A DNA stretch of 48,265 bases. It comes from an uncultured Clostridia bacterium (GTDB taxonomy: Bacteria > Bacillota > Clostridia > Oscillospirales > Acutalibacteraceae). This document shows, piece by piece, positions 751 to 33,343 of the stretch. Where the stretch lies: the NCBI GenBank assembly GCA_947652665.1, contig CANTDZ010000006.1, positions 1-48,265 on the forward strand, given 5' to 3'. The position numbers and the translations under genes are program-made. Position 1 is the first letter of the stretch, and each line of letters opens with the position of its first letter. The notes beneath the pieces were generated by a model that did no database searches, was not told the DNA's origin, and saw only the letters and a program-made list of their open reading frames with translations.

Positions 751-791
751 GAAATCCAAAGAAAGCCAAAATGCAGAGCATTGGAGGCCTT

Positions 792-1649: not shown

Positions 1650-1654
1650 TAATT

Positions 1655-1691
1655 GGAGAGAATTTTTTGATAAATCCAAAGAATTTCTCCC
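1655..1691. promoter_or_regulatory. Imperfect inverted repeat before the transporter promoter
   Basis: GGAGAGAATT (1655-1664) and AATTTCTCCC (1682-1691) form a 10-bp arm pair with one mismatch and lie immediately upstream of the -35 element. It could be the binding site of the AraC protein, or a weak terminator of its gene (a T6 run sits in the loop). Confidence 0.3.
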
Positions 1692-1692
1692 C

Positions 1693-1721
1693 TTCAAAAG
1701 CTTCTCCTTGTGTAGTATAAT
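1693..1721 (+). promoter_or_regulatory. Promoter of transporter-esterase unit
   Basis: TTCAAA (1693-1698), a 17-bp spacer and perfect TATAAT (1716-1721). The poor -35 match fits a promoter that depends on the AraC activator encoded just upstream. Confidence 0.5.
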
Positions 1722-1754
1722 TTTATAAAATCTATTCACAAAGGAGAGGTAGGC

Positions 1755-3081: not shown

Positions 3082-3094
3082 GGAGGAACCGAAA

Positions 3095-3973
3095 ATGTCC
3101 CAAGCAAGCGACAACATCCGTACCATGTTCAAAAAAGGCGACGATGAGCGGGACGCCGGACTGACCACCCCCGAGGATATCGTCCGCTATGACGACATTG
3201 CCTACGGCCCCGACCCTGCCCAGCAGTCTCTGGACGTATACCGACCCAGAAACGCGGAAGGGAAGAAGCTGCCTGTAATCGTCAGCGTGCACGGCGGCGG
3301 CTGGGTATACGGCGACAAGGAACGCTATCAGTTTTACTGCATGAATTTAGCCCAGCGGGGCTTCGCCGTGGTCAACTACACATACCGGCTGGCCCCGGAG
3401 AACAAATTCCCGGCGTGCTTGGAGGATACCAACAGCGTATTCACCTGGGTGCTGGCAAACGCTGAAAAATATGATTTTGACACCGACAACATCTTCGCCG
3501 TGGGCGATTCAGCCGGCGGGCATAATCTGGGTCTGTATGCCTCCTTCTGCACCAACCCGGATTATGCAGCTCGGTTTGAATTCACGCCGCCCAAGGGCTT
3601 TGTGCCCAAGGCCATCGCGCTCAACTGCGGTGCCTATACCCCCGGCGTGGCGGCAGACGGCTCCACCGATGCCCTCATCGCCGACCTGATGCCGAATGGC
3701 GGCACGCCCGAGGAATTGGAGCTTATCAACGTGCTGGGCTATATTACGGAAAAGTACCCACCCACCTTCCTCATGACGGCGGTGGATGATTTCCTGAAAG
3801 ATCAGGCCCCGGTGCTGGCCGCCAAGCTGGCAGAGGTGGAAGTGCCCTTTGTGTACCGGTTATACGGCAGCAGGGAGCACCGGCTGGCCCATGTGTTCCA
3901 CTTGAACATCCGGACAGAGGACGCCAGGTTCTGCAGTGATGAAGAGTGTGATTATTTCAAGAGATATATGTGA
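3095..3973 (+). CDS. HSL-type alpha/beta-hydrolase (esterase)
   Basis: A 292-residue carboxylesterase of the hormone-sensitive-lipase class (alpha/beta hydrolase fold 3). It shows the oxyanion-hole motif HGGGW (residues 66-70) and the nucleophile elbow GDSAGG (Ser139). A plausible acid and base are the Asp in TAVDDF and the His in LAHVFHLN near the C terminus. There is no signal peptide, so it acts in the cytoplasm, probably removing acetyl or other short acyl groups. An AGGAGG site precedes the ATG and it starts 13 bases after the symporter frame ends, so it is co-transcribed with it. Deacylation of an imported glycoside is the natural reading. The substrate itself cannot be read from sequence. 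Confidence 0.85.
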   Translation: MSQASDNIRTMFKKGDDERDAGLTTPEDIVRYDDIAYGPDPAQQSLDVYRPRNAEGKKLPVIVSVHGGGWVYGDKERYQFYCMNLAQRGFAVVNYTYRLAPENKFPACLEDTNSVFTWVLANAEKYDFDTDNIFAVGDSAGGHNLGLYASFCTNPDYAARFEFTPPKGFVPKAIALNCGAYTPGVAADGSTDALIADLMPNGGTPEELELINVLGYITEKYPPTFLMTAVDDFLKDQAPVLAAKLAEVEVPFVYRLYGSREHRLAHVFHLNIRTEDARFCSDEECDYFKRYM

Positions 3974-3984
3974 AAGCAATAATA

Positions 3985-4012
3985 CGAGGACCCGGCATCT
4001 GCCGGGTCCTCG
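3985..4012. terminator. Hairpin between convergent genes
   Basis: A perfect 12-bp stem (CGAGGACCCGGC with GCCGGGTCCTCG) around the loop ATCT lies between the esterase and the end of the sulfatase operon. Neither side has a clean T-run, so it may block read-through in both directions or protect mRNA ends rather than act as a classic intrinsic terminator. Confidence 0.5.
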
Positions 4013-4041
4013 TCCTATCAGGAGAATCTATCGTTTTTTCA

Positions 4042-5523
4042 CTATTTCGCATTTAGGCCCAGACGCTCATACTGCTCTACGGGAGCGTCGTTTTCCCGCA
4101 TCAGTTTCGCCATAAGTTGTTCCATCCGGCCTTTTATCTCCGCGTCCTCTATGGGATGTTCCTGTTTAGGATCTGTCTCCAAATCAAACAGCAGATCGCC
4201 ATAGCCGTGGCCGCCGCCGTAATTGCCGTCTGCTTCCATACGCATGACCGGCGCCCCTTTTGTAAAGCTGAACGGTTCCTGCGCCTGCATAGAGCGAAGG
4301 GCCCGGGGGCTAAAGAAGCCAGCCATATGGGTGGGCATCATCGTGTATTCGTACAACGGGAGGTTCTCGGGGGACTTGGGCGCTTTCATCAGCACATAGC
4401 GCCCGTCCGTACAGCAGACCATCCCGCCGTGTATGCCGAACAGCGCTGCCTGCCGCACGCCCTCGTCCCTCTCTATCACTTCATGCAAATCCTCACCCAG
4501 CATATCCTTCGGCACCGGGATGTCAAAGAAGCGCAGCAGCGTCACCGGCAAGTCGATGGTCTGTACCAGCTCTTTCCGGCGCTCGCCCTTTTTCCCGCAC
4601 CGGGGGTCCCAGATATAGAGCGGGATGTGGGTGATCTCCTCATATAAGGGCATATAGTTTTTGGCCCAATATCCGTGCTCCCCCAGCATATAGCCGTGGT
4701 CGGTGTTGACGATCAGCATGGTGTCCTTCCACATGTCGTTCTCGTCCATCAAGTCCAGCACTTTGCCCAGCTGCGCGTCGCACATGGAAAGCAGCGCGGC
4801 ATAATTATACCGGCCCTCCTGTATCTCTTCCGGCGTTTCCTTTACCAAAGCGTAGTCCGGCCAGTCGAAGCGTTCGCCGCTGTACTCATGGGGGTACAGG
4901 TCCTTATATTTGTCATAGGTGAAGAAGGGCTCGTGGGGGTCAAAGCACTCGATCTGCAAAAACCAGCGGTCGGCATCCTTGTTGCGCTCTATAAACTCCA
5001 TTCCTGCCGCAAAACACTTTACCTGCGGGTGATCCTCCTCCCGGGGCATATAGCTGCGGTTTACCAGATCCTGGCGGTACAGCTTCCCCCTGTACCCGGT
5101 AAAGCGAATCAAGTTGGGGTCAGTGTCTTCTACGCCGCCCACTACGCCTTTCCAGGGGTCGCCCTCCTGGCCGCGGAAATTCTCCCAGGTCTGGTAGCGG
5201 GTGTGGTAGGTAGCGCCGCCGTCCTCCCAATAGTGCCCGTGGTCGCTGACCAGGTGGGAGTGCACGCCGTTTTCCTTTAAAATCTGGGGCATGGAATCGT
5301 CAAAGGGCTCTATGGGCCCCCAACTGCGGTGCAGGAAGTTGTACCGCCCGGTATGAAGCTCCCGGCGGGCGGGCATACAGGGCAGGCTGGCCGCGTAACA
5401 GGTGTCAAACTGCACGGCCTTCTCCTGCAGGCGCAGGAAATTCGGCGTCAAAGTCTCTGTGCAGCCATAGGGCTGCAGCATATGGCGATTGAGGGAATCG
5501 AACATGACCATAATGGCTCTCAT
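4042..5523 (-). CDS. Type I sulfatase, cytoplasmic
   Basis: A 493-residue sulfatase of the alkaline-phosphatase fold. The sulfatase signature is CMPAR at residues 49-53 (C-x-P-x-R); Cys49 must be converted to formylglycine for activity. Metal-site candidates are Asp9 (MFDSLNRH, so D-S rather than the common D-D) and NTDHGYMLGEHG in the C-terminal half. The protein begins directly with the first beta strand, so it has no signal peptide and should work inside the cell. AAGGAG precedes the ATG. It is the last gene of the leftward operon, 16 bases after the other sulfatase. The long insertions and family are unlike classic arylsulfatase A. The substrate (sugar, steroid, peptide or phenol sulfate) is unknown. 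Confidence 0.9.
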   Translation of the reverse strand: MRAIMVMFDSLNRHMLQPYGCTETLTPNFLRLQEKAVQFDTCYAASLPCMPARRELHTGRYNFLHRSWGPIEPFDDSMPQILKENGVHSHLVSDHGHYWEDGGATYHTRYQTWENFRGQEGDPWKGVVGGVEDTDPNLIRFTGYRGKLYRQDLVNRSYMPREEDHPQVKCFAAGMEFIERNKDADRWFLQIECFDPHEPFFTYDKYKDLYPHEYSGERFDWPDYALVKETPEEIQEGRYNYAALLSMCDAQLGKVLDLMDENDMWKDTMLIVNTDHGYMLGEHGYWAKNYMPLYEEITHIPLYIWDPRCGKKGERRKELVQTIDLPVTLLRFFDIPVPKDMLGEDLHEVIERDEGVRQAALFGIHGGMVCCTDGRYVLMKAPKSPENLPLYEYTMMPTHMAGFFSPRALRSMQAQEPFSFTKGAPVMRMEADGNYGGGHGYGDLLFDLETDPKQEHPIEDAEIKGRMEQLMAKLMRENDAPVEQYERLGLNAK

Positions 5524-5539
5524 GATAACAGCTCCTTTT

Positions 5540-6883
5540 TTATAGGGTCAGGCTGTAGTTGGCGGCAAATTTTTCGTCCCAGTTTCTCTCCAGACGCTCC
5601 CGCCAGGCCAGGGCCTTTTCGGACAGCTCTTTTGTAAGCTCCGGAAGCTCCCCGGCCAGATTGTGCTCCTCCCCCGGGTCGGCCTCCAAGTCGGACAGGA
5701 ACACCGGGTCCTGCACAGGCTCGCCTTCCACCAGCGTTCCGTTTAGCACCAGCTTGTACTTGCCATGGCGCACGGCGGTCTGGCCGTCCATTTCCCAGAA
5801 AATGTCCTCGTGGGGGCTTTCCCCACCCTGGGTAAGCACATCCCAGATATTGGCGCCGTCCAGCTCATAGGCGTCCGGCGAGCCCCCCGCCTGGGCTAAG
5901 ATGGTGGGGAACACGTCCATGGCGGCGCAGGGCTGGTCGATGACCTGTCCGCCCGGGATGGTGCCAGGCCAGGAGAAGATGCCCGGCACGCGCACGCCGC
6001 CTTCAAAAAGGCTGTACTTGTGGCCCTTGAACCCCCCGGTCTGGCCGCCGTAATAGGGATCGGGGGTGCCGTCCAGCCAGTTGCGGGATTCCCGGGAGGG
6101 CCCGTTGTCGCTTTGGAAGAAAATGCAGGTGTTTTCATACTCCCCGCAGCGCTTGAGCTCGTCTACAATAGCTCCCACCCCGTCGTCTACCGCCGAGATC
6201 ATCGCTGCCATTACCTGCCTGTCCCAGGGCAGATGGGCAAAGCGCTGCATATATTTTTCCGGCGCGTGCATGGGGTAGTGGGGGGCGTTATAGCCTACAT
6301 ATAATAGGAAGGGCTCGTCCTTTTGGGCGTGGCCCCGTATGCTCTCCACGGCTTTCTCGGTAATGAGCTCGGTCATATACTTGCCGTTTTCCCGGACCTC
6401 CTTGTCGTTTTCCCAGAGGTCATGGGTGGGATCGGTGTGGCCGTCCGCCATGCCCCAATAGAAGATGTGGGAGTAATAATCGATGCAGCCCGCCATAAAC
6501 CCGTAAAAGTCGTCAAAGCCGTTCTGGTTGGGGCGGCACTCCTCTTTTAAGCCCAGGTGCCATTTCCCTACCAGGGAGGTCTTATATCCCTGCTCCTTCA
6601 GCGCAGCGGCAATAGTGGGCACCTTGGGCGTCAGGCCGGAAGCCTTTCTGTGTCCGGCCAGAATCGCCCGTACCCCCGCATTGCCCGGGTAGCGCCCGGT
6701 AAGCAGCGAGGCTCGGGAGGGCGAGCACACCGGGCTGCCCGAGTACCAGTTGGTAAACCGGGCCCCCGTCTGGGCCAGGGCGTCGATGTTGGGTGTGACG
6801 AAATCCTTGCTGCCCATGCAGGACAAGTCGCCATAGCCCTGGTCGTCGGTCATGATCATAATGAAATTTGGCTTTTTGCTCAT
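5540..6883 (-). CDS. Type I sulfatase (arylsulfatase A-like), cytoplasmic
   Basis: A 447-residue arylsulfatase-A-type enzyme. It starts with the canonical strand and metal ligands (NFIMIMTDDQGYGDL, Asp13/Asp14), then the formylglycine motif CSPSR (Cys53-Arg57) followed by ASLLTGRYP, the KWHLG motif, and the second metal site FFQSDNGP. The motif is Cys-type, so it needs the maturase encoded at 16212-17327. No signal peptide is present, so action is on imported substrate. It lies 24 bases after the ABC ATPase gene and 16 before the second sulfatase in the same operon. The two sulfatases are dissimilar outside the motifs and probably remove different sulfate groups or act on different substrates. 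Confidence 0.93.
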   Translation of the reverse strand: MSKKPNFIMIMTDDQGYGDLSCMGSKDFVTPNIDALAQTGARFTNWYSGSPVCSPSRASLLTGRYPGNAGVRAILAGHRKASGLTPKVPTIAAALKEQGYKTSLVGKWHLGLKEECRPNQNGFDDFYGFMAGCIDYYSHIFYWGMADGHTDPTHDLWENDKEVRENGKYMTELITEKAVESIRGHAQKDEPFLLYVGYNAPHYPMHAPEKYMQRFAHLPWDRQVMAAMISAVDDGVGAIVDELKRCGEYENTCIFFQSDNGPSRESRNWLDGTPDPYYGGQTGGFKGHKYSLFEGGVRVPGIFSWPGTIPGGQVIDQPCAAMDVFPTILAQAGGSPDAYELDGANIWDVLTQGGESPHEDIFWEMDGQTAVRHGKYKLVLNGTLVEGEPVQDPVFLSDLEADPGEEHNLAGELPELTKELSEKALAWRERLERNWDEKFAANYSLTL

Positions 6884-6907
6884 AGGGTATCCCTTCTTTC
6901 TCCTATA

Positions 6908-7933
6908 CTATTTTACCTTATTGTAAATGGAAACGTCAATGCCCACCTCTTCCGCCGTGGCGGCGTGCTCGTAGAGGAAGCATTTTACCAGCCTGCCCCC
7001 TACCCTGTAATCCTCCGGCTTTTCTCGGCGGCACCGGTCGGTGGCCTTGGGACAGCGCTCGGCAAAGGGGCACTGGTTCATTTCGCCGGTCAGGTCGGGC
7101 AGATTCTCGCTGGCGTATATCTCGATTTTCTCCTCCCGGAAGGGCTCCGGCGTGCTGGAGAGCAGCAGGATCGTATAGGGGTGCAGGGGCTGGGCAATGA
7201 TCTCGTCGGTAGCGCCCTGCTCCACGCAGTTGCCGGCGTACATAACCACCATGCGGTCGGCCATATACCGGGCCGATGCCAGATTGTGGGTGATGTACAT
7301 ATAGGTGAGCCCTTCCTTTTTTTGCAGGTCGATCATCAGGTTCATGATGTCGATGCCGATGGACACGTCCAGCATAGAGGTGGGCTCGTCTGCCACCAGG
7401 ATGGAGGGCTTTACCGCCAGCGCCCGGGCAATCACGATGCGCTGGCGCTGGCCGCCGGAAAGCTGGTTGGGATGCTTTTCCATAAAGTCTGCGGCGGGGG
7501 TAAGGCCCACGGTCTCAAAAAGCTCTACGACCCGCGCCTTCACCTCTGCCTTGCTCAGCTCCGGGTAGTGCAGCTCTACGGCCCGGCCTACAATATAGCT
7601 GGCCTTATGGGCCGGGTTCAGGGAGCCGAAGGGGTCTTGGAAAATCATTTGGACTTCCTTGCGGAACTTTGCAACGTCCTTGTTTTTCTTATAGCTGGAA
7701 ATGTCCGTGCCGTTTACATAGATGCTCCCCTCGGTGGGGTCGTAAACCTTGCAGAGCATCTTGGCCATGGTGGACTTGCCGCAGCCGGACTCGCCCACTA
7801 CCGCCAGGATCTCCCCCTGCTGTATCTCAAAGCTGACATTGTCCACGGCCTTTAAGGCGCTTTTCCCAAAAAGGCCCTGGCGCTTGACGAAATGCTTTTT
7901 TACATGGTCGAATTTTATGACCGGGTTCCCCAT
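6908..7933 (-). CDS. Peptide-family ABC importer ATPase (OppF/DppF type)
   Basis: A 341-residue ATP-binding subunit. It has Walker A GESGCGKST, Q-loop FQDPFGSLNP, signature LSGGQRQR, Walker B ILVADEPTSMLD and the switch His in YITHNL. The C-terminal oligopeptide/dipeptide extension has the Cys cluster CPFAERCPKATDRC, which in this family holds an iron-sulfur cluster. It starts directly after the stop codon of the partner ATPase, so the two are translationally coupled. It powers uptake through the two permeases upstream. DPP/OPP-family transporters also carry nickel, oligosaccharides and other small molecules, and its position in front of two sulfatases suggests a sulfated ligand. Confidence 0.93.
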   Translation of the reverse strand: MGNPVIKFDHVKKHFVKRQGLFGKSALKAVDNVSFEIQQGEILAVVGESGCGKSTMAKMLCKVYDPTEGSIYVNGTDISSYKKNKDVAKFRKEVQMIFQDPFGSLNPAHKASYIVGRAVELHYPELSKAEVKARVVELFETVGLTPAADFMEKHPNQLSGGQRQRIVIARALAVKPSILVADEPTSMLDVSIGIDIMNLMIDLQKKEGLTYMYITHNLASARYMADRMVVMYAGNCVEQGATDEIIAQPLHPYTILLLSSTPEPFREEKIEIYASENLPDLTGEMNQCPFAERCPKATDRCRREKPEDYRVGGRLVKCFLYEHAATAEEVGIDVSIYNKVK

Positions 7934-8917
7934 TTACTCTCCCTCCTTTTTGAGCCTGTGGTAGCACGCACAGGTATGGTTTTCCCCCACGGCCTCCAGG
8001 GGGGGCGGCGCGGACAGGCAGTCCTTCTGCCGGTAAGCGCAGCGGTCGTAAAACAGGCAGCCCGGCGGCGGGGTGATCAAGTCGGGCACGCTGCCCATAA
8101 TGCCCTTTAAGGGCTTGCGGGGCCCCACCAAAGAGGGGAACGCCTGCAAAAGCCCGCTGGTGTAGGGGTGCGAGGCCCCTTCCAGCAGGTCGCCCACCGG
8201 GGCGATCTCCGCCATGCGCCCGGCATACATAATGGCGATGCGGTCGCACATTTCCAGCATCAGGGGCAGGTCGTGGGTGATGAACAGCACCGAAAAGCCC
8301 ATCTTCGCCTTCAGCTCCTGGATGCGGCGGATGATGTTGTACTGCACCACCACGTCCAGGGCGGTGGTAGGCTCGTCAAAGATCACCAGGTCGGGCTTTA
8401 GGGCCAGGGCCATGGCGATGACCACCCGCTGGCGCATACCGCCGGAAAGCTCGTGGGGGTATGCCTTGATGCGGTTCTCGTCGATGTTTACCAGCTTCAA
8501 AAGCTCCTTGGCCCGCTGTACCGCTTCCTTTTTGGGCAGCGCCTCGTGGGCCAGTATGGCGTCCATCAGCTGGCTGCCAATGGTGACCACAGGGTTTAGG
8601 TTGTTCATGGCGCTCTGCAGCACCATGGAGCTCTTCTCCCAGCGGAAGGTGCGCAGCTCCTCCTTGGTAAAAGCCAGCACGTTTTTCCCGGCGAACTCGA
8701 TGCTCCCGCCGGAGATATGGGCCGCGCCTTTTAACAGCTGCATGATGGAAAACGCCACGGTAGACTTGCCGCAGCCGGATTCCCCTGCCAAGCCGAAAAA
8801 CTCGCCCCTGTGTATTTCAAAATTTACATCCGTAACAGCCTGCACCTGGCCCCGGTCTGCGGTATACCGGACGTTCAGGTCCTTTACGGACAGCAAGACC
8901 TCTCTTTTTTCTGCCAT
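7934..8917 (-). CDS. Peptide-family ABC importer ATPase (OppD/DppD type)
   Basis: A 327-residue ATP-binding subunit of the same importer. It has Walker A GESGCGKST, Q-loop LQSAMNNLNP, signature LSGGMRQR, Walker B LVIFDEPTTALD and the switch His in FITHDL. The C-terminal region carries CLFYDRCAYRQKDC, the iron-sulfur-type Cys motif usual for DppD/OppD. It pairs with the ATPase that follows to make the heterodimeric engine on the cytoplasmic face of the membrane. It begins 23 bases after the DppC-type permease. The sequence gives no ligand information, because specificity lies in the binding protein. Confidence 0.93.
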   Translation of the reverse strand: MAEKREVLLSVKDLNVRYTADRGQVQAVTDVNFEIHRGEFFGLAGESGCGKSTVAFSIMQLLKGAAHISGGSIEFAGKNVLAFTKEELRTFRWEKSSMVLQSAMNNLNPVVTIGSQLMDAILAHEALPKKEAVQRAKELLKLVNIDENRIKAYPHELSGGMRQRVVIAMALALKPDLVIFDEPTTALDVVVQYNIIRRIQELKAKMGFSVLFITHDLPLMLEMCDRIAIMYAGRMAEIAPVGDLLEGASHPYTSGLLQAFPSLVGPRKPLKGIMGSVPDLITPPPGCLFYDRCAYRQKDCLSAPPPLEAVGENHTCACYHRLKKEGE

Positions 8918-8940
8918 TGAAATCGCTCCCTTCCCTCAAC

Positions 8941-9828
8941 TTAGAGTTTGACGGCGCCGCCCCGGTCATTTGCGTAAATGTCCAGGAAGGAATTGCCGAT
9001 GAGCATGAAGCTGAACCCCAGCGTAGCAATGGACAGCCCCGGCGGCAGCATCCACCACCAAGCGTTGTAGAGGATGGCGTTGTTGTCAAAAGCCACGGAG
9101 AGCATCTGCCCCCAGCTGATGAGGGTGGGGTCGCCCAGGCCTAAGAAGCTCAGGGTGGCCTCCGTCAGCATGGCGGAGGTGATGACCATGACCATGTTGG
9201 CCGTCACCACGGGGATGATGTTGGGCAGGATCTCCTTGAACATGATTTCCAGGGTGCCCATGCCCTGCACCTTGGCGGCATCCACATATTCCCGCCGGGC
9301 TTCCGACAGGGTCTGGGAGCGGATGCTGCGGGCCATCCACAGCCAGTTCAGGCCGCCGATGATGATGACCAGGTTCCAAATGCCCATGCTGGGCAGGAAA
9401 GCCGCCAGCACGATCATAAAGGCCAAGGTGGGCACCACCAGGAACACGTCCACAATGCGCATCAGGATCTCGCCCGTCCGGCCTCCCTTATAGCCGGCCA
9501 GCAGCCCCACAAAGACGCCGATGAAGCTGGTGAGCAGCCCGGCTAAAACGCCCACCACCATGGTCACCTGGGTGCCGTATACCACCTGGGAGAAAATATC
9601 CTGCCCATAGCTGTTCACCCCCAAGGGGTGGGCAAGCGACGGCTTTTCCCAGGGCATAAAGCTGATATCCTTGGGCCCATAGGGCGCGATCACCGGGGCG
9701 AATATGGCAACCAGGGCAAAGAACACCAGTATGCCCACGCCCACCTTTGCACGGGTATTTTTCAAAAAATATTTTTCCAGCACCAGGTAGCTGTCGGACT
9801 TCTCTTTTTTCTGCTTCTTTTTGTCCAT
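8941..9828 (-). CDS. Peptide-family ABC importer permease (DppC type)
   Basis: A 295-residue membrane subunit. It starts with a Lys-rich cytoplasmic tail (MDKKKQKKEK), then one helix (VGVGILVFFALVAIFAPVIAPYG), then the BPD_transp_1 domain with its remaining helices. The EAA loop that docks the ATPase reads EYVDAAKVQGMGTLEIMFKE. I place the start at the ATG ending at 9828, because AAGGAGG lies just upstream and the longer frame would run back into the upstream permease gene. That puts it 17 bases after the DppB-type stop codon. It forms the channel with the DppB-type partner. Confidence 0.92.
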   Translation of the reverse strand: MDKKKQKKEKSDSYLVLEKYFLKNTRAKVGVGILVFFALVAIFAPVIAPYGPKDISFMPWEKPSLAHPLGVNSYGQDIFSQVVYGTQVTMVVGVLAGLLTSFIGVFVGLLAGYKGGRTGEILMRIVDVFLVVPTLAFMIVLAAFLPSMGIWNLVIIIGGLNWLWMARSIRSQTLSEARREYVDAAKVQGMGTLEIMFKEILPNIIPVVTANMVMVITSAMLTEATLSFLGLGDPTLISWGQMLSVAFDNNAILYNAWWWMLPPGLSIATLGFSFMLIGNSFLDIYANDRGGAVKL

Positions 9829-9845
9829 CCCGTTTTCCTCCTTCC

Positions 9846-10832
9846 TCATTCCAAAGATACCCTGGGGTCGATCAGCGGGTAGATCAGATCGGCCAGGAAA
9901 TTCAGCAGCACCACGCTTAGGGCGATGATGGCAAAGCATCCCTGCACCAGCGGGTAGTCGTGGCTCAAGACCGCGTTCATAATGGTAAGGCCGATGCCGG
10001 GATAGGAGAAGATCATCTCCGTGGCAATGGCGCCGCCCACAGCTTGGCCCAAGCTGAGCATCAACCCGGTGAAGGAGGGCAGCATGGCATTGCGCAGGGC
10101 GTATTTGGTCAGGATCTTGCTGCGGCGCAGGCCTTTTGCCTGGGCCAGCACGATGTAGTCCTCCGAAAACACCTGCAGGATGTTGCTTCGCATCATGATC
10201 ATGCGCCCGGCCAAGGACACGATGACCAGCGACAGCACCGGCAAAAAGGCGTGGTAGGCGATGTTCTTCACTAGCGCCCCCATGTTCGCCAGGTCCGCGC
10301 CGGGGGTCATGGCGTGGCCCATGGGGAACCAGTTGAGATGGTAGCCCAGGCCCATTACCAGCAGCATGGCTACCAGGAAATAGGGCACGGACTGGATGTA
10401 GAAAGAGACACCCACTACCGTGTTGTCAAACAGCGAGCCCTTTTTCAGGGCCGCCACCGTGCCTACCAGCCACGCGATCAAAAAGGAAAGCAAGGTGGAG
10501 ATCAGCACGATCAGCAGGGTCCAGGGCATGGCCTGCAGGATAATATCCTTTACCGGAATGGGAAAGTTCGTGTAAGAGACGCCCAGGTCCCCCTGCAGCA
10601 GCCCCCCCAGATAGCGGGCGTACTGTTCCAGGATGCCCTTGTCCAGGCCAAACTGCTCCCGTATCTGCTGGGCGTATTCCGCCGAGCCCATGGCGTTCTG
10701 CGAGGCCAGGTACTCAGCCGGGTCGCCGCCCATCATACGGGGCAGCAGGAAGTTGAAGGTCAGCGCCACCCACAGGGTAAAAAGGGCACTGAGCAGACGT
10801 TTGCAAACATATTTTAGCGTAATGCCTTTCAA
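9846..10832 (-). CDS. Peptide-family ABC importer permease (DppB type)
   Basis: A 328-residue membrane subunit. The N-terminal helix and periplasmic-type loop (LPRMMGGDPAEYLASQN) are typical of DppB/OppB/NikB. The EAA loop reads YIVLAQAKGLRRSKIL, and the C-terminal helix ends in the family's PLIDPR block. The start codon is TTG, supported by GGGGAGG six bases upstream. It lies about 100 bases after the binding-protein gene, separated by a stable hairpin, so permeases are probably made at lower levels than the binding protein. It forms the membrane pore together with the DppC-type subunit. Confidence 0.93.
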   Translation of the reverse strand: MKGITLKYVCKRLLSALFTLWVALTFNFLLPRMMGGDPAEYLASQNAMGSAEYAQQIREQFGLDKGILEQYARYLGGLLQGDLGVSYTNFPIPVKDIILQAMPWTLLIVLISTLLSFLIAWLVGTVAALKKGSLFDNTVVGVSFYIQSVPYFLVAMLLVMGLGYHLNWFPMGHAMTPGADLANMGALVKNIAYHAFLPVLSLVIVSLAGRMIMMRSNILQVFSEDYIVLAQAKGLRRSKILTKYALRNAMLPSFTGLMLSLGQAVGGAIATEMIFSYPGIGLTIMNAVLSHDYPLVQGCFAIIALSVVLLNFLADLIYPLIDPRVSLE

Positions 10833-10855
10833 GCTTTTCCTCCCCTTTGTAAAAG

Positions 10856-10894
10856 AGAGGATACTCCATGCTGTTTCGGTCTGGAATATCCTCT
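10856..10894 (-). promoter_or_regulatory. Intercistronic stem-loop after the binding-protein gene
   Basis: A 13-bp arm pair (10856-10868 and 10882-10894, AGAGGATAytCCA type, one mismatch) sits in the mRNA between the binding-protein and permease genes. On the operon strand it is followed by CTTTTAC, a short T-run. It probably acts as a partial terminator or 3'-end stabiliser, giving more binding protein than permease. On the opposite strand it is followed by a longer T-rich tract, but no gene there needs it. Confidence 0.5.
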
Positions 10895-10930
10895 GCTTTT
10901 TATTTTTTTACGTTATGCGGTCATCTTCGG

Positions 10931-12670
10931 TTATCCAACAGGATGCACGTTGATGAGGTTGCGGTTGCTTATGACCGGTGCCTCGTAATCCGTCCAGCCG
11001 GTCATGGCAGTCCCGTCATAGTAGGGGATGTGGCCGCTGGAGTTGTACATGGGCAGGAACACGAAGTCCTTTGCCAGCAGGTCCTGCATCTGGCCGTACA
11101 GGTCCTTGAGCACCTCTTCGTCCGTCTCGGAGGAAGCCTGGGCCAGCAGGGCGTCCATCTCGTCGCTGCGGTAGCGGAAGTAGTTCAGGCCGGGGGTGGG
11201 CTCGCCCGTGGGGGCGGTCATGGAGGAGTTGAAGCAGCTGTTGAGGGCGGCATAGGGGTCCGGCGGGAAGTTGATGCCGTTTTGCAGCAGGTCATACTTG
11301 CCGGTCTGCAGCAGGGTGGTCAGCTCGGGCCAGGTGGCCAGCTTGGGGATGATCTCCACGCCCAGGTTCAAAAGCCACTGCTGGATGAGGCCCGCTTCCA
11401 TCTGCTGGGCCGGTGCGCCGGAGGCGTTGTGGTAGGTAAAGGACAACCGCTTGCCGTCCTTCTGATAGATGCCGTCATCGCCCTTGGTGTAGCCGGCTTC
11501 TTCCAGCACGGCCTGGGCACCTTCCAGGTCAAACTCCAGGGAGTTCTTGGCCTCTTCGTTTACATAGTCGCCGAACAGGTCGGGCAGCCAGCTGATGCTG
11601 GTAGGCAGCACGCCGTTATATTCGCCGCGGGAGATGAGCTCCGGCTGGTTGATGGCCATAGCCATGGCCTTACGCACGGCGGGGTCGGCCAGCAGCTCGT
11701 TTTCGTGGTTCATGATAACGGAGTAGTTGCCAAGGCCTGCGTAGATATCCATTTTAGCGTTTTCCTTGGAGAGGAACTCCGGGATGCTGGACATGGCGAT
11801 GGTGCCGGTAGTGGCGTCAATCTCGCCATTGAGGAGGCCCAGGGTGCAGTTGGGCGAAGAGTTGTACATGACGATAAGCATCTTGTCCACCTTGGGAGCG
11901 CCGCACCAGTAATCGGGGTTGGCGTTCATCTCAATGGAGGTGCCTACGGTGTACTTTTCAAAAACGAAGGGCCCGGTGCCGATGGGGGTGTCGTTGGTAA
12001 AGGTGGCAGGGTCTTCCTTCTCCCACAGGTGCTTGGGCACAATGCGTACCTTGGAAAGGTACTGGGCCAGGGAAACGAAGGATTCCTTGCAGGTAAACAC
12101 GACCTTGTCGCCGTCGGCCGTTACGTCGCTGAGCTTGTCCCACAGGGCATACTGGTCATAGGTGGGGTTGTCCTTCAAAACGGACATGGTGTAGGCCACG
12201 TCCTCCGCGCTGAAGGCGGTGCCGTCGTGCCACTTGGCGTCGGAGTTGATGGTGAAGGTCAGCTCGGTCATGGCGTCGTCCCATTCATACTCGGCAGCCA
12301 ACGCGGGCTCCAGCTCGCCCTTTTTCTCGTTGTAGGTGAGAAGGGGCTCGTAGATGCGGTCCAGCATAAAGGTGAAGGTGCCGGAAGTTGCCAGGGGGTT
12401 TTTATTGGCAAGCTCGGTGTCCAGCACGTAAGCGCCGATGCGCAGGGTGCCGCCGGTGGCGGTACTGTCAGCCTTGGGCTCGTCCGCAACGGACTCCTCC
12501 GGCTCTTCAGTGGGCTTGCTCTCCTCCGTCTGGGAGGATGCCTCGGAAGCTTTCGATTCCTGGGGCGCCGCCGTACTGCTGGTGGATGCGGGTGGGCCGC
12601 CGCAGCCAGCCAGCAGCAGCGCTACGGCCAGTGCCAGGGCCAGCCATTTGCTAATGCCTCTTTTTTTCAT
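10931..12670 (-). CDS. ABC importer substrate-binding lipoprotein (SBP family 5)
   Basis: A 579-residue lipoprotein and the first gene of the seven-gene operon. It has a Lys/Arg start, a hydrophobic core and the lipobox LLAGC, so the mature protein is anchored outside the membrane at Cys23. A 50-residue Ser/Thr/Glu linker follows, then a full solute-binding domain of family 5 (DppA/OppA type: LTFTINSDAKWHDGTAFSAE, the hallmark W-H-D-G-x-x-F block, and KAMAMAIN further on). The upstream site is AGGAGG. Family 5 proteins bind peptides, nickel, sugars and other ligands. Here the operon context points to a sulfated molecule, which is inference. Confidence 0.93.
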   Translation of the reverse strand: MKKRGISKWLALALAVALLLAGCGGPPASTSSTAAPQESKASEASSQTEESKPTEEPEESVADEPKADSTATGGTLRIGAYVLDTELANKNPLATSGTFTFMLDRIYEPLLTYNEKKGELEPALAAEYEWDDAMTELTFTINSDAKWHDGTAFSAEDVAYTMSVLKDNPTYDQYALWDKLSDVTADGDKVVFTCKESFVSLAQYLSKVRIVPKHLWEKEDPATFTNDTPIGTGPFVFEKYTVGTSIEMNANPDYWCGAPKVDKMLIVMYNSSPNCTLGLLNGEIDATTGTIAMSSIPEFLSKENAKMDIYAGLGNYSVIMNHENELLADPAVRKAMAMAINQPELISRGEYNGVLPTSISWLPDLFGDYVNEEAKNSLEFDLEGAQAVLEEAGYTKGDDGIYQKDGKRLSFTYHNASGAPAQQMEAGLIQQWLLNLGVEIIPKLATWPELTTLLQTGKYDLLQNGINFPPDPYAALNSCFNSSMTAPTGEPTPGLNYFRYRSDEMDALLAQASSETDEEVLKDLYGQMQDLLAKDFVFLPMYNSSGHIPYYDGTAMTGWTDYEAPVISNRNLINVHPVG

Positions 12671-12752
12671 GTTTTGTTACCTCCTAAAAAATTTGGTTTT
12701 CAGACGTTTTTCTCTCCTCCCGCTTGCAAGGGGCCCGTCTGTATTGAGCTCC

Positions 12753-12758
12753 ATTATA
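12753..12758 (-). promoter_or_regulatory. -10 element of the importer-sulfatase operon
   Basis: A perfect TATAAT (reverse strand) lies about 85 bases upstream of the binding-protein ATG. No good -35 is found at the proper distance, which fits a promoter that needs an activator such as the divergently encoded response regulator. Confidence 0.45.
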
Positions 12759-12829
12759 TCGCCTGATTTCCTTTGAAAACATGTAAAATGTTCAGGTTCG
12801 TTTGTATTTTCTTCATATATTACATAAAT

Positions 12830-12869
12830 TAGCAAGAATATCCACTTGACTTTTTGGGGATTCTTGCTA
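12830..12869. promoter_or_regulatory. Inverted-repeat operator candidate in divergent region
   Basis: TAGCAAGAAT (12830-12839) and its exact reverse complement ATTCTTGCTA (12860-12869) are 30 bp apart centre to centre, about three helical turns, on the same face of the DNA. The -35 of the rightward promoter lies between the arms and its -10 overlaps the right arm. It is a good candidate site for the AraC-type response regulator encoded next door. Confidence 0.55.
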
Positions 12870-12873
12870 TATT
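12846..12873 (+). promoter_or_regulatory. Promoter P1 of the regulator-maturase operon
   Basis: TTGACT (12846-12851), a 16-bp spacer and TATATT (12868-12873), embedded in the inverted repeat. The predicted transcript start near 12880 leaves a leader of about 55 nt that keeps the AAGGAGG site. Confidence 0.5.
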
Positions 12874-12889
12874 AAGAGTACGACAGCTT

Positions 12890-12919
12890 TTGACAAACCT
12901 CGTGCAGGATGTGTATAAT
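12890..12919 (+). promoter_or_regulatory. Promoter P2, fully consensus, overlapping the ribosome site
   Basis: TTGACA (12890-12895), an 18-bp spacer and TATAAT (12914-12919). Transcription from it would start about 12926, inside the Shine-Dalgarno site and ten bases before the TTG start codon, so its transcripts would be almost leaderless. Confidence 0.45.
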
Positions 12920-12935
12920 AAAGGAGGTGGAGGCC

Positions 12936-13667
12936 TTGTACCGCATCGTTTTGATTGATGACGAACCCTGGAGCGCCGCCGTGCTCAAGGACAGCATCGA
13001 CTGGGGCCAGCTGGGGTTTTATCTGGACAAACTGTACACCCATCCAATAGAGGCATTGGAGGCCATTTGCGCCGACAGCCCCGATGTGGTGATCACCGAC
13101 ATCTCCATGCCCCGGCTGGACGGGCTGGAGCTCATCCGCCAGGCCCAGGCCCGGGGATGCCGCAGCCGGTTTTTGATCCTCTCGGCCCACCGAAATTTTG
13201 ACTACGCCAAAGCCGCCCTTCAGCTGGACGTGGTGGATTACTACCTGAAGCCCATCCGCCCGGAAGAGATTGCCCTGCTGTTTTCTTCCATCAAGGCCTC
13301 GCTGGACGAGGAAAACGGCCTGCCCGTGGAAGAGCCCCTGCCCGGCGCGCGGTTCGAGGAGATCCTGCACTACATCGACAGCCACCTGGATTCCCGGCTG
13401 ACGCTGCAGTCCATCAGCGAGGCCTTTTACCTGAACCGCACCTATATCTGCAGCCTTTTCAAAAAGCACCTGGACACGACCTTCTCCCAATACCTGACCA
13501 ATGCCCGCATCAAAAAAGCCAAGTTCTATTTATCCCACACAAACCTAAAGCAGATGGAGATCGCCGCAAAGGTGGGGTTTAATGATGAATTTTATTTCAG
13601 CAAGGTTTTCAAAAAATCCGAAAAAATGTCCCCAGGCGCCTACCGCAAGCGCGCTGGCCCCCACTGA
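12936..13667 (+). CDS. YesN-type response regulator (REC + AraC HTH)
   Basis: A 243-residue response regulator. The receiver domain (1-120) begins MYRIVLIDDE, has the acceptor Asp55 in VVITDISMP and the conserved Lys in YYLKPIRPEE. The C-terminal 100 residues form an AraC double helix-turn-helix (RLTLQSISEAFYLNRTYICS, then AAKVGFNDEFYFSKVFKKSE). I choose the TTG at 12936: AAGGAGG (12921-12927) is eight bases before it and the protein then starts exactly at the first receiver strand. The in-frame ATG at 12909 would put that SD inside the gene. It is the first gene of a four-gene operon with kinase, exporter and maturase, and probably controls both this operon and the divergent importer-sulfatase operon. 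Confidence 0.9.
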   Translation: MYRIVLIDDEPWSAAVLKDSIDWGQLGFYLDKLYTHPIEALEAICADSPDVVITDISMPRLDGLELIRQAQARGCRSRFLILSAHRNFDYAKAALQLDVVDYYLKPIRPEEIALLFSSIKASLDEENGLPVEEPLPGARFEEILHYIDSHLDSRLTLQSISEAFYLNRTYICSLFKKHLDTTFSQYLTNARIKKAKFYLSHTNLKQMEIAAKVGFNDEFYFSKVFKKSEKMSPGAYRKRAGPH

Positions 13668-13704
13668 GGGCGCGCCCTCCGGCAGGGGCCAGGAAAAGAG
13701 CGTT

Positions 13705-15399
13705 TTGAAAATGCTCCTGCACTTTTTCCTGTTCACCTGCATCCTGTTTTTAATGCTGCTGCTCCTGGCGTCGGTATGGTTTTTCAGCTTGCAGAAGAAG
13801 ACCGCCAACGACTACCTGGAGTCTTCCATGAGCGCCATGGCGGACAACATCGAAAGCTATTTTGGCACCCTGGAAAAAATCGGCTTCGGCATTTCCTCCA
13901 ACCGCTCGGTCATCAACCTCTATTCCAGCGACCGCTCGACGGACATTGACGACGCCGTAGGCTCTTTCCAGACCATGACCCTTCTGTGCAGCATCGAGCC
14001 CTCCATTGCGGATATCATGATCGTAGACATAAACGGCACGGGCAAAAGCTATTTTGCCGGCATCGACTACGGGATTATCGAAGAGATACCCCTGTATGAA
14101 AGCTTTTACGACTCCCACATTTTGGAGCGCAGCCTGAAATTCTTCCCGCCGGAAAGCAAGTGGAGCGATGTCTATTTCGTTTACATCGTCCCTATCCTCC
14201 ACCTGGACGTGTGGCCGGAGGATTCGCAAAAGGTAGCCACCGGGCTCCTGCTGTGCACCAAGACCCGCCTGGCCAGCCTGATGAAGGCCGGCAGCACCCA
14301 CATGAACGAGGAATACGCCCTGTACCAGGGGGACGCCTGCGTGCTCAGTTCTTCCGGCACGCCGCCGGAGCCGGGCCCCAACACCATCACCAAGGAAGTG
14401 GCCCTTTCCCGGGGCGGGCTGACCTTAAAAGGCATGGCTACTCCCCGGCACCTGTCGGAAAACACCCACCTGCTTTTGCTGTTTGGCGTGGCGTGCTTCG
14501 GTGCCGTAGCGCTGGTTCTTTTCCTGCTGGCCAAGCAGCTGCGCCGTTATATTTTGAATCCCATTTATAATACCACCGTGCAGCTGGTGGGTTACCGCGG
14601 GGAGAACCTCTCGGCGCACATCACCTATTCCGGCATTAAGGAGATCGACACGATTATAGCGGATATCAACCAGATGATCGACAAGATCAAGATGGCGACC
14701 CGGCAGATCCTCTCCACCCAAAATATGCTCTATGAAACCGAGCTGCGCACAAAAGAGGCACAGCTTTACGCCCTGCAAAGCCAGGTAAACCCTCATTTCC
14801 TCTATAATACCCTGCAATGCATCTGCGGCCTGGCCGCTATGGGCCGCACGGCCGATATCCAAAAAATCACCCTGGCCATGTCCGACGTGTTCCGCTATTC
14901 CATCCACCCGGGCAACTTTATCGGCTGTGCGGAGGAGATCGAGATCATCTACCAATATCTTTCCATTTTTGAGATACGATATGACGGAAAGATTTCCTAC
15001 GAGATCCAAATCGACGAAGACGTGCTGGACTGCCGGATCTTAAAAATGATTATACAGCCTACGGTGGAAAACGCTCTCCTGCACGCCTACCAGGATATAG
15101 ACGAGGAACCCTTCATACAAATATGCGGGGAAAAGGAAGGCCATGGCCTGGTGTTCACCATTGCCGACAGGGGCTCGGGCATATCCCAGGACAAGCTGCT
15201 GGAACTGCAAAAACAATTGGAGCGGGATTTTTCCGAATCCATCCAAAAGGCCTCGTCCTTTGGCCTGGGGCTTTATAATATCAACCGGCGCATCAAGCTG
15301 GCTTATGGGGACCGCTATGGCATCAGCATCACCAGCAGCCCGGAGGGCACCCAGGTGAAAATACGCGTCCCCGACACGCCGCCTGGACCGCCGCAATAA
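13705..15399 (+). CDS. YesM-type sensor histidine kinase
   Basis: A membrane sensor kinase of about 565 residues. Helix 1 (residues about 3-28) and helix 2 (about 255-277) enclose an extracellular sensing region of some 220 residues, presumably a Cache-like domain. A HAMP-like linker follows, then the His_kinase domain with the phospho-acceptor in QVNPHFLYN (His near 364) and an HATPase domain (N-box PTVENALLHA, G-boxes DRGSGIS and GLGLYNI). The frame is open back to 13582, overlapping the regulator gene, but that extension has no SD. TTG 13705 (AGGAAAAG six bases upstream) or ATG 13711 is more likely. It is expected to sense an extracellular sugar-like ligand, or the loaded binding protein, and phosphorylate the preceding regulator. 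Confidence 0.9.
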   Translation: MKMLLHFFLFTCILFLMLLLLASVWFFSLQKKTANDYLESSMSAMADNIESYFGTLEKIGFGISSNRSVINLYSSDRSTDIDDAVGSFQTMTLLCSIEPSIADIMIVDINGTGKSYFAGIDYGIIEEIPLYESFYDSHILERSLKFFPPESKWSDVYFVYIVPILHLDVWPEDSQKVATGLLLCTKTRLASLMKAGSTHMNEEYALYQGDACVLSSSGTPPEPGPNTITKEVALSRGGLTLKGMATPRHLSENTHLLLLFGVACFGAVALVLFLLAKQLRRYILNPIYNTTVQLVGYRGENLSAHITYSGIKEIDTIIADINQMIDKIKMATRQILSTQNMLYETELRTKEAQLYALQSQVNPHFLYNTLQCICGLAAMGRTADIQKITLAMSDVFRYSIHPGNFIGCAEEIEIIYQYLSIFEIRYDGKISYEIQIDEDVLDCRILKMIIQPTVENALLHAYQDIDEEPFIQICGEKEGHGLVFTIADRGSGISQDKLLELQKQLERDFSESIQKASSFGLGLYNINRRIKLAYGDRYGISITSSPEGTQVKIRVPDTPPGPPQ

Positions 15400-15415
15400 A
15401 AGGAGGGCACTGCCT

Positions 15416-16201
15416 ATGGAATTTCTGCTTTATCTTGCCATCTGTTTTTTTGCCACGGTAGTGGGAGCCATCAGCGGCATAGGGGGCGGGGTCATCATCA
15501 AGCCGGCCTTTGACCTGTGCACAGACCTTTCCGCTTCCACCATCAGCTTTTTGTCCGGCTGCACGGTGCTGGCCATGACGTCGGTCTCCCTGCTGGGGGC
15601 CAGGAACGGGCCCATCCGGGTAGAAAAGCGCCGGGGCACCCTTTTGGGGCTGGGCGCCACCGCCGGGGGCATACTGGGCAAGCTGCTGTTTAACGCCCTG
15701 CGCGCTGCCGTTCAAAACGAAAAACTTGTGGGGGGCACGCAGAACGCCGTCATGGTGTTGCTGTGCCTGGGGGTGTTTGCCTATGTGCTGAACAAAAAGC
15801 ACATCCACACCCGCGACGTGGAGGGGGCGGCCCTGTGCATCGCCATCGGGCTGTTTTTGGGGGCTTCCGGCGCTTTCCTGGGCATCGGCGGGGGGCCCAT
15901 CAACCTGGTGGTGCTCTACTACTTTTTCTCTATGGACCCCAAAACCGCCGCCCTCAACTCCCTGTACATCATCTTTTTCTCTCAGGCCGCCAGCCTGCTT
16001 TCGCTGCTGTGCTCTGGGAAGATACCGGATTTCCACCCAGCCGTCCTGTGTATTATGGTAGCCGGGGGGATCGCCGGGGCCTTTTGGGGCCGGGCCGCTG
16101 CTAAAAAGCTTTCTGCGGCCCAAACAGACCGCCTGTTTCTCCTAGTGCTGCTGTTGATACTGCTTATCAGTGGTTATAATATTTTCCATTCTATCCTGTA
16201 A
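15416..16201 (+). CDS. TauE/SafE (TSUP) family sulfite/sulfate-type anion exporter
   Basis: A 261-residue membrane protein with about eight hydrophobic helices arranged as two repeats. Each repeat carries the family's glycine-rich block (GAISGIGGGVIIKPAF near the N terminus and GASGAFLGIGGGPINL in the second half). TSUP proteins move sulfite, sulfoacetate, thiosulfate and related anions. AAGGAGG precedes the ATG, 16 bases after the kinase gene and 10 before the sulfatase maturase. Its place in a sulfatase regulon suggests it removes the sulfate (or sulfite) released in the cytoplasm by the two sulfatases. Direction and exact anion are inferred, and the family also includes importers. Confidence 0.88.
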   Translation: MEFLLYLAICFFATVVGAISGIGGGVIIKPAFDLCTDLSASTISFLSGCTVLAMTSVSLLGARNGPIRVEKRRGTLLGLGATAGGILGKLLFNALRAAVQNEKLVGGTQNAVMVLLCLGVFAYVLNKKHIHTRDVEGAALCIAIGLFLGASGAFLGIGGGPINLVVLYYFFSMDPKTAALNSLYIIFFSQAASLLSLLCSGKIPDFHPAVLCIMVAGGIAGAFWGRAAAKKLSAAQTDRLFLLVLLLILLISGYNIFHSIL

Positions 16202-16211
16202 GGAGGCCTTT

Positions 16212-17327
16212 ATGCCACCCCTCTATCTTCTGATAAAGCCCGCCTCCAGCCTGTGCGATATGCGGTGCCGCTACTGCTTTTACTGCGACGTGGCCCAAAA
16301 CCGCCAGGAAAGCTCTTACGGCGTGATGGAGCTTTCTACGCTGGAAACCATTATACAAAAGGCACTGCTCACAGCCGACGGGGAGTGCACCTTTGCCTAT
16401 CAGGGCGGGGAGCCCACCGTGGCGGGGCTTGACTTTTTCCGGCGTTCCATCGAATTGGAAAAAAAGCACAACACGAAAGGGCTGAAAATCCACCACCTGA
16501 TCCAGACCAACGGCTTTAGCATGACCGAGGACTGGGCCCGGTTCCTGGGCGAAAACCGCTTCCTGGTGGGCGTCTCTCTGGACGGCACCCGCGACACCCA
16601 CGACGCCTTCCGCCGGGACCCCCAGGACAAGCCTACCTTTTCCACCGTTATGCGCGCCACCAGGCTTTTGCGCAAGCATCAGGTGGACTTTAATATCCTG
16701 ACGGTAGTGCACTCCCAAACCGCCCGGCATATCCATAAAATCTATGATTTTTATAAGCGGGAAGGGTTCTCGTATCTGCAGTTCATCCCCTGCCTGCAGC
16801 CCTTTGGGAAGGAACAGGAGCAGGCTCCCTACACCCTGACGCCCAAGGCCTACGGGCGGTTTTTGAAAGAGCTGTTTTCCTTATGGGAGCAGGACGTGCT
16901 GGCCGGGCGGGAAGTGCACATACGGCAGTTTGAAAACTACATAGAGATGCTGCTGGGCTGGCCGCCGGAGTCCTGCGGCATGAGCGGCATCTGCTCGGTG
17001 CAGCACGTGGTCGAGGCTTCTGGGGAGGTGTATCCCTGCGATTTTTACGTCACCGACCCATACCGCTTGGGCGACCTGCGCACAGACTCTTTTGCCGATC
17101 TGGAGAAGAAGCGGCGGGAGCTCCGGTTTATTGAAATGTCCCGCCAGCCCCATGAGAAGTGCACGGGATGCCAATTCTTCCCCATCTGCCGGGGCGGCTG
17201 CAAGCGGTACCGGGAGCCTTTTACGGATGGCTATCAGTTGAATTGTTTTTGCGAGGCCTATGAGGATTTCTTTCAGGATGCCCTGCCCAGGCTGTATAGG
17301 CTGGCCAAGCTTTTTTCGTCGATGTAG
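16212..17327 (+). CDS. Anaerobic sulfatase-maturating enzyme (radical SAM, anSME)
   Basis: A 371-residue radical-SAM SPASM enzyme that converts the active-site Cys (or Ser) of sulfatases to formylglycine without oxygen. The SAM cluster ligands are Cys15, Cys19 and Cys22 (CDMRCRYC). It then shows the family block YQGGEP and LIQTNG. The auxiliary-cluster region has YPCDFYV, whose Asp matches the essential base of anSME, and the SPASM cysteines in CTGCQFFPICRGGC and CFCEAY. I start at ATG 16212 because AGGAGG lies just before it; the longer frame begins inside the exporter gene. The target Cys motifs CMPAR and CSPSR of the two operon-linked sulfatases are suitable substrates. It implies an anaerobic lifestyle. 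Confidence 0.95.
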   Translation: MPPLYLLIKPASSLCDMRCRYCFYCDVAQNRQESSYGVMELSTLETIIQKALLTADGECTFAYQGGEPTVAGLDFFRRSIELEKKHNTKGLKIHHLIQTNGFSMTEDWARFLGENRFLVGVSLDGTRDTHDAFRRDPQDKPTFSTVMRATRLLRKHQVDFNILTVVHSQTARHIHKIYDFYKREGFSYLQFIPCLQPFGKEQEQAPYTLTPKAYGRFLKELFSLWEQDVLAGREVHIRQFENYIEMLLGWPPESCGMSGICSVQHVVEASGEVYPCDFYVTDPYRLGDLRTDSFADLEKKRRELRFIEMSRQPHEKCTGCQFFPICRGGCKRYREPFTDGYQLNCFCEAYEDFFQDALPRLYRLAKLFSSM

Positions 17328-17340
17328 GCGAGGGCAGACA

Positions 17341-17383
17341 AAATCCCCCTGTGTAGTCGTTTTCCTACACAGGGGGATTTTTT
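17341..17383. terminator. Strong bidirectional terminator
   Basis: A 16-bp perfect stem (17341-17356 with 17365-17380) around TCGTTTTC, followed by T6 (17378-17383) on the plus strand and TTTT on the minus strand. It ends the maturase operon and the convergent MATE gene. Confidence 0.88.
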
Positions 17384-33275: not shown

Positions 33276-33314
33276 AATGCAATCGCTCCTTTCCCACAAG
33301 GGATATATAGGTTT

Positions 33315-33343
33315 ATTATGCCGTACCCCAGGGGAATTGTCAA
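33315..33343 (-). promoter_or_regulatory. Promoter of the SLH/transglutaminase gene
   Basis: Reverse-strand TTGACA (33343-33338), a 17-bp spacer and CATAAT (33320-33315). It is probably also the nearest promoter for valS-folC. Confidence 0.65.

Follow-up and report, generated by a model that had tools for sequence, protein, structure and literature searches.

A divergent gene cassette predicted to import, desulfate and export the sulfate of a small sulfated glycan in an uncultured Clostridia bacterium

The DNA considered here is a complete contig (C6; CANTDZ010000006.1) of 48,265 bases, hereafter the window, from an uncultured Clostridia bacterium of the gut (family Acutalibacteraceae), whose genome bin (GCA_947652665.1) comprises 2.6 Mb in 213 contigs and is 94.6% complete. 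Eleven genes, encoding an ABC importer, two sulfatases, a two-component regulatory pair, a membrane carrier and a sulfatase maturase, lie in two divergent operons at 4042-12670 (minus strand) and 12936-17327 (plus strand), which are separated by 265 bp and within which the intergenic gaps measure 0 to 98 bp. Families were assigned by Pfam for ten of the eleven genes and by NCBIfam for the maturase, and these assignments confirm the operons, gene families and tight spacing that an initial annotation of this DNA, made without database searches, had described at this place. The gene set exceeds what chance would assemble, as its layout is syntenic in other genomes and a terminator-like stem stands directly behind each operon.

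Read downwards from 12670, the minus-strand operon begins with a family 5 lipoprotein solute-binding protein (SBP; 10931-12670; SBP_bac_5, 1.1e-69), in which a LAGC lipobox can be read. This is followed by an OppB-type permease (9846-10832; BPD_transp_1, 1.5e-43), an OppC-type permease starting at ATG 9828 (8941-9828; BPD_transp_1, 1.1e-28, with OppC_N), an OppD-type ATPase (7934-8917; ABC_tran, 7.9e-28, with oligo_HPY) and an OppF-type ATPase (6908-7933; ABC_tran, 3.5e-37, with oligo_HPY), so that an SBP_bac_5 protein, two permeases and two oligo_HPY ATPases make up an importer of the Opp/Dpp type. The operon ends with the S1-type sulfatases Sulf2 (5540-6883; Pfam Sulfatase, 2.1e-62) and Sulf1 (4042-5523; Pfam Sulfatase, 2.8e-29). 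The plus-strand operon encodes, in order, a YesN-like response regulator (RR) with a receiver and an AraC-type helix-turn-helix domain (12936-13667; Response_reg, 3.1e-19; HTH_18, 9.8e-19), a YesM-like sensor histidine kinase (HK; 13705-15399; His_kinase, 2.2e-20, with HATPase_c), a TSUP (TauE/SafE) membrane carrier proposed to export sulfate (15416-16201; TauE, 5.3e-30) and a radical-SAM anaerobic sulfatase maturase (anSME; 16212-17327). The RR most likely starts at TTG 12936, which is preceded by AGGAGG; by reading of the sequence, the HK starts at 13705 or 13711 and anSME at ATG 16212.

Both sulfatases carry the CxPxR motif together with the conserved active-site set of S1 formylglycine sulfatases. 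The translations contain the two formylglycine motifs first noted in the initial annotation, CMPAR with Cys49 in Sulf1 and CSPSR with Cys53 in Sulf2. Residues D9, N12, C49, R53, H95, H97, H197, D275, H276 and K288 of Sulf1 are invariant in 36 of 36 aligned rows, as are D13, D14, C53, R57, K107, H109, H202, D259, N260 and K289 of Sulf2 in 12 of 12. We take the first Asp of the active site to be residue 9 in Sulf1 and residues 13-14 in Sulf2, and Sulf1 carries His-x-His at the spot where Lys-x-His is typical of most S1 enzymes. Both proteins are probably active sulfatases. The longest open frames would lengthen them by merely 8 codons (501 versus 493 residues for Sulf1 and 455 versus 447 for Sulf2), both begin at the fold core with no space for a signal peptide, and a simple hydrophobicity scan found no membrane segment in either. 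Because the extension is so short and no hydrophobic segment is present, neither protein has a hidden signal peptide; by this absence of a signal sequence, as had been claimed for both, Sulf1 and Sulf2 are cytosolic. The best PDB match of Sulf2 is 6bia (1.7e-73), and its closest solved relatives are carrageenan sulfatases of S1_19 and S1_16, acting on iota-carrageenan (S1_19) and kappa-carrageenan, along with N-acetylgalactosamine (GalNAc) sulfatases; steryl sulfatase and arylsulfatase A rank behind these. For Sulf1 there is no solved structure close by, its best PDB match reaching 1e-19 across half of the protein. Three more matches to the Sulfatase profile are found in the genome, and a CAPYR motif can be read in the one located on contig C159.

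The maturase scores above two NCBIfam equivalog cut-offs (NF010321, 471 versus 441 bits; TIGR03942, 388.3 versus 349.45), and its best PDB match is 4k36 (3e-121). Its translation contains the radical-SAM motif CDMRCRYC, in agreement with the cysteine motif initially reported. It is the sole match in the genome above the TIGR03942 cut-off. An anSME homologue occurs at E<=1e-60 in all 12 genomes examined, 8 of which hold one above the cut-off; the gene adjoins the cassette in loci L134 and L025 and lies divergently beside Sulf2 in L113. As a separate observation, among 80 loci of the Sulf1 family a formylglycine-generating enzyme (FGE) is encoded nearby in 20 (L036, L030 and 18 others) and anSME in 10 (L029, L074 and 8 others), as if either maturase serves one sulfatase family, and the FGE loci are mostly aerobic-looking.

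The order SBP-OppBCDF-sulfatase is syntenic in Neglectibacter (L021/L134), Faecivicinus (L022), Blautia (L026), two Treponema bins (L024, L025) and L109, and also in a second Blautia contig (L023) that ends inside OppF. The seven-plus-four layout noted initially recurs with all eleven genes in Neglectibacter sp. X58 (NZ_QWEO01000017.1), where anSME precedes TSUP; the remaining genomes (L022, L024, L025, L026, L109 and the cut L023) hold shorter versions. Identity to the Neglectibacter proteins is 83-92% for the Opp proteins, 89% for Sulf2, 81% for SBP, 80% for Sulf1 and 79% for RR, and lower for HK (64%), anSME (54%) and TSUP (44%). Sulf2 is missing from the L025 cassette, and Sulf1 was not found within the 32 kb examined at L109, where a transposase-like gene (13494-14675; IS110-like by eye) stands between OppF and Sulf2.

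Sulf1 is part of a large, conserved family of sulfatases without signal peptides. A scan of named genomes confirmed at least 562 relatives of it, and the best 80, at 57-80% identity, belong to Clostridia, Paenibacillus, Streptomyces, Chloroflexi, Lentisphaerae and Lokiarchaeia/Lokiarchaeota bins. Sulf1 is seldom met in the organism's own family, with matches at E<=1e-60 in 4 of the 150 genomes sampled, its own being one of them. At E<=1e-110, Sulf2 was detected in 5 of the 345 genomes searched from the order and in 2 of the 391 from the class, again counting its own. Relatives of Sulf2 outside the cassette are found in L107 (same genus, 85%), L111, L113 and L115. The L115 relative (55-56% identity; 784-8770) adjoins, by eye, a LarA-like gene and a tripartite tricarboxylate transporter set, a context that hints at another class of sulfated substrate.

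The case for sulfate export comes from gene linkage. The carrier matches the TauE profile well above threshold (105 bits versus 32.6), and homologues sought at E<=1e-15 in 345 genomes of the order number 20 besides that of this genome. Flanking stretches of roughly 6 kb in either direction, less where a contig ended, were inspected for all 20 with a sulfatase profile whose seed sequences include two of the linked sulfatases. A sulfatase or anSME is present in 9 of the 20 loci, and in 8 of those a sulfatase is directly beside TSUP; the chance of at least 9 is 7e-11, 2e-7 or 6e-5 at an assumed background of 2, 5 or 10%. On a tree of 25 TSUP proteins, 8 changes are required to explain the linkage label, and well supported branches force at least 4 of these; therefore the linkage of TSUP with sulfatases recurs. 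Five of the tree rows (the window, L134, L135, L136 and L027) were picked from cassette or sulfatase loci, so the 14 linked rows among the 25 do not give a rate. Direct neighbours are found as Sulf2-TSUP in L109 and as TSUP-sulfatase in L135, L136 and L137. Among the eight cassette genomes, five hold a TSUP at E<1e-40, and in all five a sulfatase or anSME is encoded no more than 3 kb away. This recurrent linkage supports, but does not prove, that the carrier exports the released sulfate. The TSUP sequence itself was rejected as a predictor of linkage, as the label is unclustered on the tree (8 changes versus a shuffled mean of 8.5, with 232 of 500 shuffles as low). Apart from the cassette, TSUP also forms two- or three-gene units with other sulfatases in Clostridia (L137:6801-8941, L172, L173, L177 and L178), and the L177 unit has a sulfatase on each side.

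The regulatory genes form a YesMN-type pair, in that a His_kinase-type sensor with two hydrophobic segments (1-31 and 253-280) flanking an external domain accompanies an AraC-type response regulator. In L134, L022, L024, L025 and L026 the import operon is bordered by a YesMN-like kinase, a regulator or both; neither was found at L109. The kinase shares 58% identity with its Neglectibacter counterpart in the first 300 residues and 72% in the remainder. Upstream of SBP, a putative -10 box TATAAT (12753-12758, minus strand) was read from the sequence, and some 16 bp from it lies an element of 30 bp (12775-12804, minus strand) that shows one difference (an N position) from Neglectibacter, where the spacing to the -10 box is equal; the inter-operon spacer is otherwise poorly conserved between the two. 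A 27-base core of the element, allowing <=3 mismatches, has a single site in this genome and a single site in Neglectibacter, both at the SBP promoter, and is absent from four other genomes searched in the same way. The element is a natural candidate for the RR binding site. A wider regulon was considered and rejected, since the SBP promoter is the only site found.

The nature of the substrate has to be judged from the relatives and neighbours of these proteins. The solved structures nearest to SBP, at 7.6e-50 to 3.5e-44, are Vibrio periplasmic proteins that bind peptides or chitin oligosaccharides, and one entry among them bears the name chitin oligosaccharide binding protein; a Thermotoga group including a mannoside binder comes next, and then Salmonella-type OppA (3.7e-15). 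SBP reached no NCBIfam equivalog cut-off, whether for peptide, nickel or other ligands. As its closest solved relatives are binders of chitin oligosaccharides, the peptide family of the importer, noted initially, is no pointer to peptides. The same annotation had found no glycoside hydrolases (GH) here, which is true of the eleven genes, but GH125 and GH38 mannosidases come after the Blautia cassette (L026), and within 8 kb of Sulf1 in the 80 loci GH3 occurs at 17. Other Sulf1 neighbours are SBP_bac_1-type proteins (16 of 80), a cluster of binding-protein-dependent permeases (24), LacI (12) and MFS_2 sugar carriers (6). These numbers refer to graph clusters, for which one representative per named family was checked by Pfam, and anSME by profile; a neighbour cluster at 61 loci that consists of frames opposite Sulf1 was excluded. 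Because of the mannosidases behind the Blautia cassette and the GH3 genes near Sulf1, sugars lead the list of substrates, and we favour a sulfated glycan or glycoside of small size; peptides, steroids and bile acids rank below it.

More specific candidates did not hold. A mannose-type glycan, suggested by the Blautia mannosidases, was rejected because neither family is present in this genome, so that the reading is not transferable. Glycosaminoglycan (GAG) disaccharides processed by GH88 were set aside on similar grounds, GH88 being found in 3 of the 8 cassette genomes, in two of these weakly. Fucose, suggested by a Sulf2 relative near a fucose operon (L111), is a single case, in which MarR-like and peroxidase-like genes stand between by eye.

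Overall, we consider it likely that the eleven genes form a cassette dedicated to the catabolism of a small sulfated glycan or glycoside, combining import, cytosolic desulfation and sulfate export. The lipoprotein SBP would capture the intact sulfated compound outside the cell and OppBCDF would import it, as expected for this transporter family. In the cytosol, anSME, by its family function, would activate Sulf2 and Sulf1, which may remove sulfate from two positions or from two related substrates. The desulfated sugar would then enter general metabolism, and TSUP would expel the freed sulfate. The HK is predicted to sense an extracellular signal, upon which RR would turn on the import operon through the 30-bp element. 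Thus, the import-desulfate-export circuit proposed at the outset, with its cytosolic sulfatases, cognate maturase, conserved unit with its own regulator and TSUP recurring by sulfatases, is still the best reading, and it is the accompanying list of substrates that was too wide. We would propose only tentatively, and with some doubt, that the cassette represents a portable module for desulfation in the cytosol, found in gut Clostridia and Spirochaetes, that TSUP is a dedicated sulfate exporter repeatedly recruited beside sulfatases, and that the Sulf1 family, from Streptomyces and Paenibacillus to the Lokiarchaeia bins, acts on one shared small sulfated sugar.

Several observations weigh against the cassette reading. 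No sulfatase or anSME was seen in the stretch examined at 11 of the 20 TSUP loci, and the most similar carriers (52-57%, L161-L165) are among these 11; the Faecivicinus match to TSUP is weak (5.8e-8), and none was found in the two Treponema cassette genomes. With five of eight linked and the others weak or absent, the pairing with TSUP is recurrent, not obligatory. On the substrate side, the Sulf1 neighbour tallies are raw counts without background control, and the carrageenan and chitin resemblances amount to 25-35% identity, which does not fix specificity. Neither GH125, GH38 nor GH88 (PF07470) has a match in this 94.6% complete bin, and hence the cassette genomes have no single common downstream glycan pathway. 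It is conceivable, if somewhat unlikely, that TSUP has a role other than sulfate export: it might expel sulfite or an organic sulfonate, take up sulfate or a different anion, or be a functionally untied neighbour. The unlinked closest homologues and the two genomes lacking TSUP fit such a role, as does the poorly defined specificity of TSUP proteins (PMC5840216), and against it stand the linkage in 9 of 20 loci, its recurrence on the tree and previously described operons with the same pairing (PMC10413263, PMC3302838, PMC3283741).

That the same circuit serves a non-sugar substrate, such as a sulfotyrosine peptide or a steroid, phenol or bile-acid sulfate, appears unlikely. The Opp/Dpp grouping of the importer and the absence of a glycoside hydrolase from the eleven genes would suit it, and Sulf2 does show recognisable similarity to human steryl sulfatase (5.9e-50); however, Sulf2 is nearer to carrageenan sulfatases, SBP is nearer to chitin-oligosaccharide binders than to Salmonella-type OppA, and sugar transporters and glycoside hydrolase families lie near relatives. 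No peptidase or steroid gene was noticed by eye in the cassette loci, and for peptides, steroids and bile acids, all initially listed as candidates, we found no positive evidence, with sugar-type relatives and neighbours instead. A GAG disaccharide importer as in Streptobacillus moniliformis, in which an unsaturated glucuronyl hydrolase cuts after desulfation, shares the logic of importing intact sulfated disaccharides through an ABC transporter towards a sulfatase predicted to be cytoplasmic (PMC5430744), but the distribution of GH88 described above makes it improbable. In many free-living bacteria, sulfatases provide the sulfate that is assimilated, and desulfation could here likewise supply sulfur and not carbon. 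A dedicated sensor pair in place of a sulfur-limitation regulator, together with a putative exporter of the product, argues against such scavenging, which we regard as slightly more improbable still.

The boundaries of the cassette are marked by the terminator-like stems, of 13 pairs with 10 GC behind Sulf1 (3984-4013, minus strand) and of 17 pairs with 8 GC behind anSME (17340-17381, plus strand). The stem scan found 21 terminator-like sites versus 15.3 in shuffles, so that support for both stems comes from their position and strength alone. The plus operon has a putative promoter, TTGACA-18-TATAAT (12890-12919, plus strand), that agrees with consensus at 12 of 12 positions; the sigma-70-like promoter scan gave 10 sites versus 6.4 in shuffles. 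Beyond Sulf1, a separate operon converges on the cassette. It contains a GPH-type sugar carrier at 1755-3081 that is split into overlapping frames (1755-2417 and 2356-3081), perhaps by a frameshift or assembly error, between an AraC regulator (771-1649) and an esterase (3095-3973; Pfam BD-FAE/Abhydrolase_3). Elsewhere in the window, at 31167-35299, two large divergent surface-type proteins have SLH-like repeats by eye, with a transglutaminase-like part in one and an SH3-like part in the other.

Discussion of gut sulfatases mostly treats them as enzymes that work on polysaccharides in the periplasm or outside the cell. A conserved unit for import, cytosolic desulfation and export suggests that small sulfated glycans are a basis for cross-feeding. 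Should TSUP prove to be the exit, it would be a concrete candidate for cytosolic sulfate disposal by fermenting bacteria, the sulfate then being open to sulfate reducers. In addition, since the Sulf1 family is large and conserved and has no close solved structure, one assay could annotate hundreds of genes.

The logic of this circuit has more precedent than the initial annotation implied, since parallels exist in Streptobacillus, pneumococcus and acesulfame degraders. In Streptobacillus moniliformis (Smon0120-0127), a binding-protein-dependent ABC transporter has been shown to bring sulfated chondroitin disaccharides into the cell intact, and cytoplasmic desulfation was proposed, no sulfatase activity having been detected outside (PMC5430744). 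Unlike the present cassette, that cluster works with a lyase and a GH88 hydrolase, and the accessible part of the report makes no mention of a TSUP carrier, a maturase or a YesMN pair. The Streptococcus pneumoniae island SPH1922-1930 likewise unites an importer, a sulfatase, a sulfatase-modifying enzyme and a TauE-family exporter in one operon (PMC3302838, PMC3283741), but its importer is a lactose-type phosphotransferase system in place of an ABC importer, its regulator is of the ROK/MarR type and it has one sulfatase. Cluster 1 for acesulfame degradation in Bosea also combines an ABC importer, a cytoplasmic sulfatase and a TauE-like exporter (PMC10413263); it differs in its metallo-beta-lactamase-type sulfatase, its sulfamate product, for which export was proposed, its ABC family and its setting in an aerobic plasmid system. 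Bifidobacterium breve UCC2003 is reported in a review to use an intracellular sulfatase on scavenged N-acetylglucosamine-6-sulfate (PMC7326374). The genomic counterpart in Neglectibacter sp. X58 shares all eleven genes and the 30-bp element, and differs in the order of anSME and TSUP and in its divergent carrier. A literature search, largely open-access and not exhaustive, found no description of this Opp-type cassette. Import followed by desulfation is already known, and what looks new here is that these elements are combined with an importer of the Opp type, a second sulfatase and a YesMN pair of their own.

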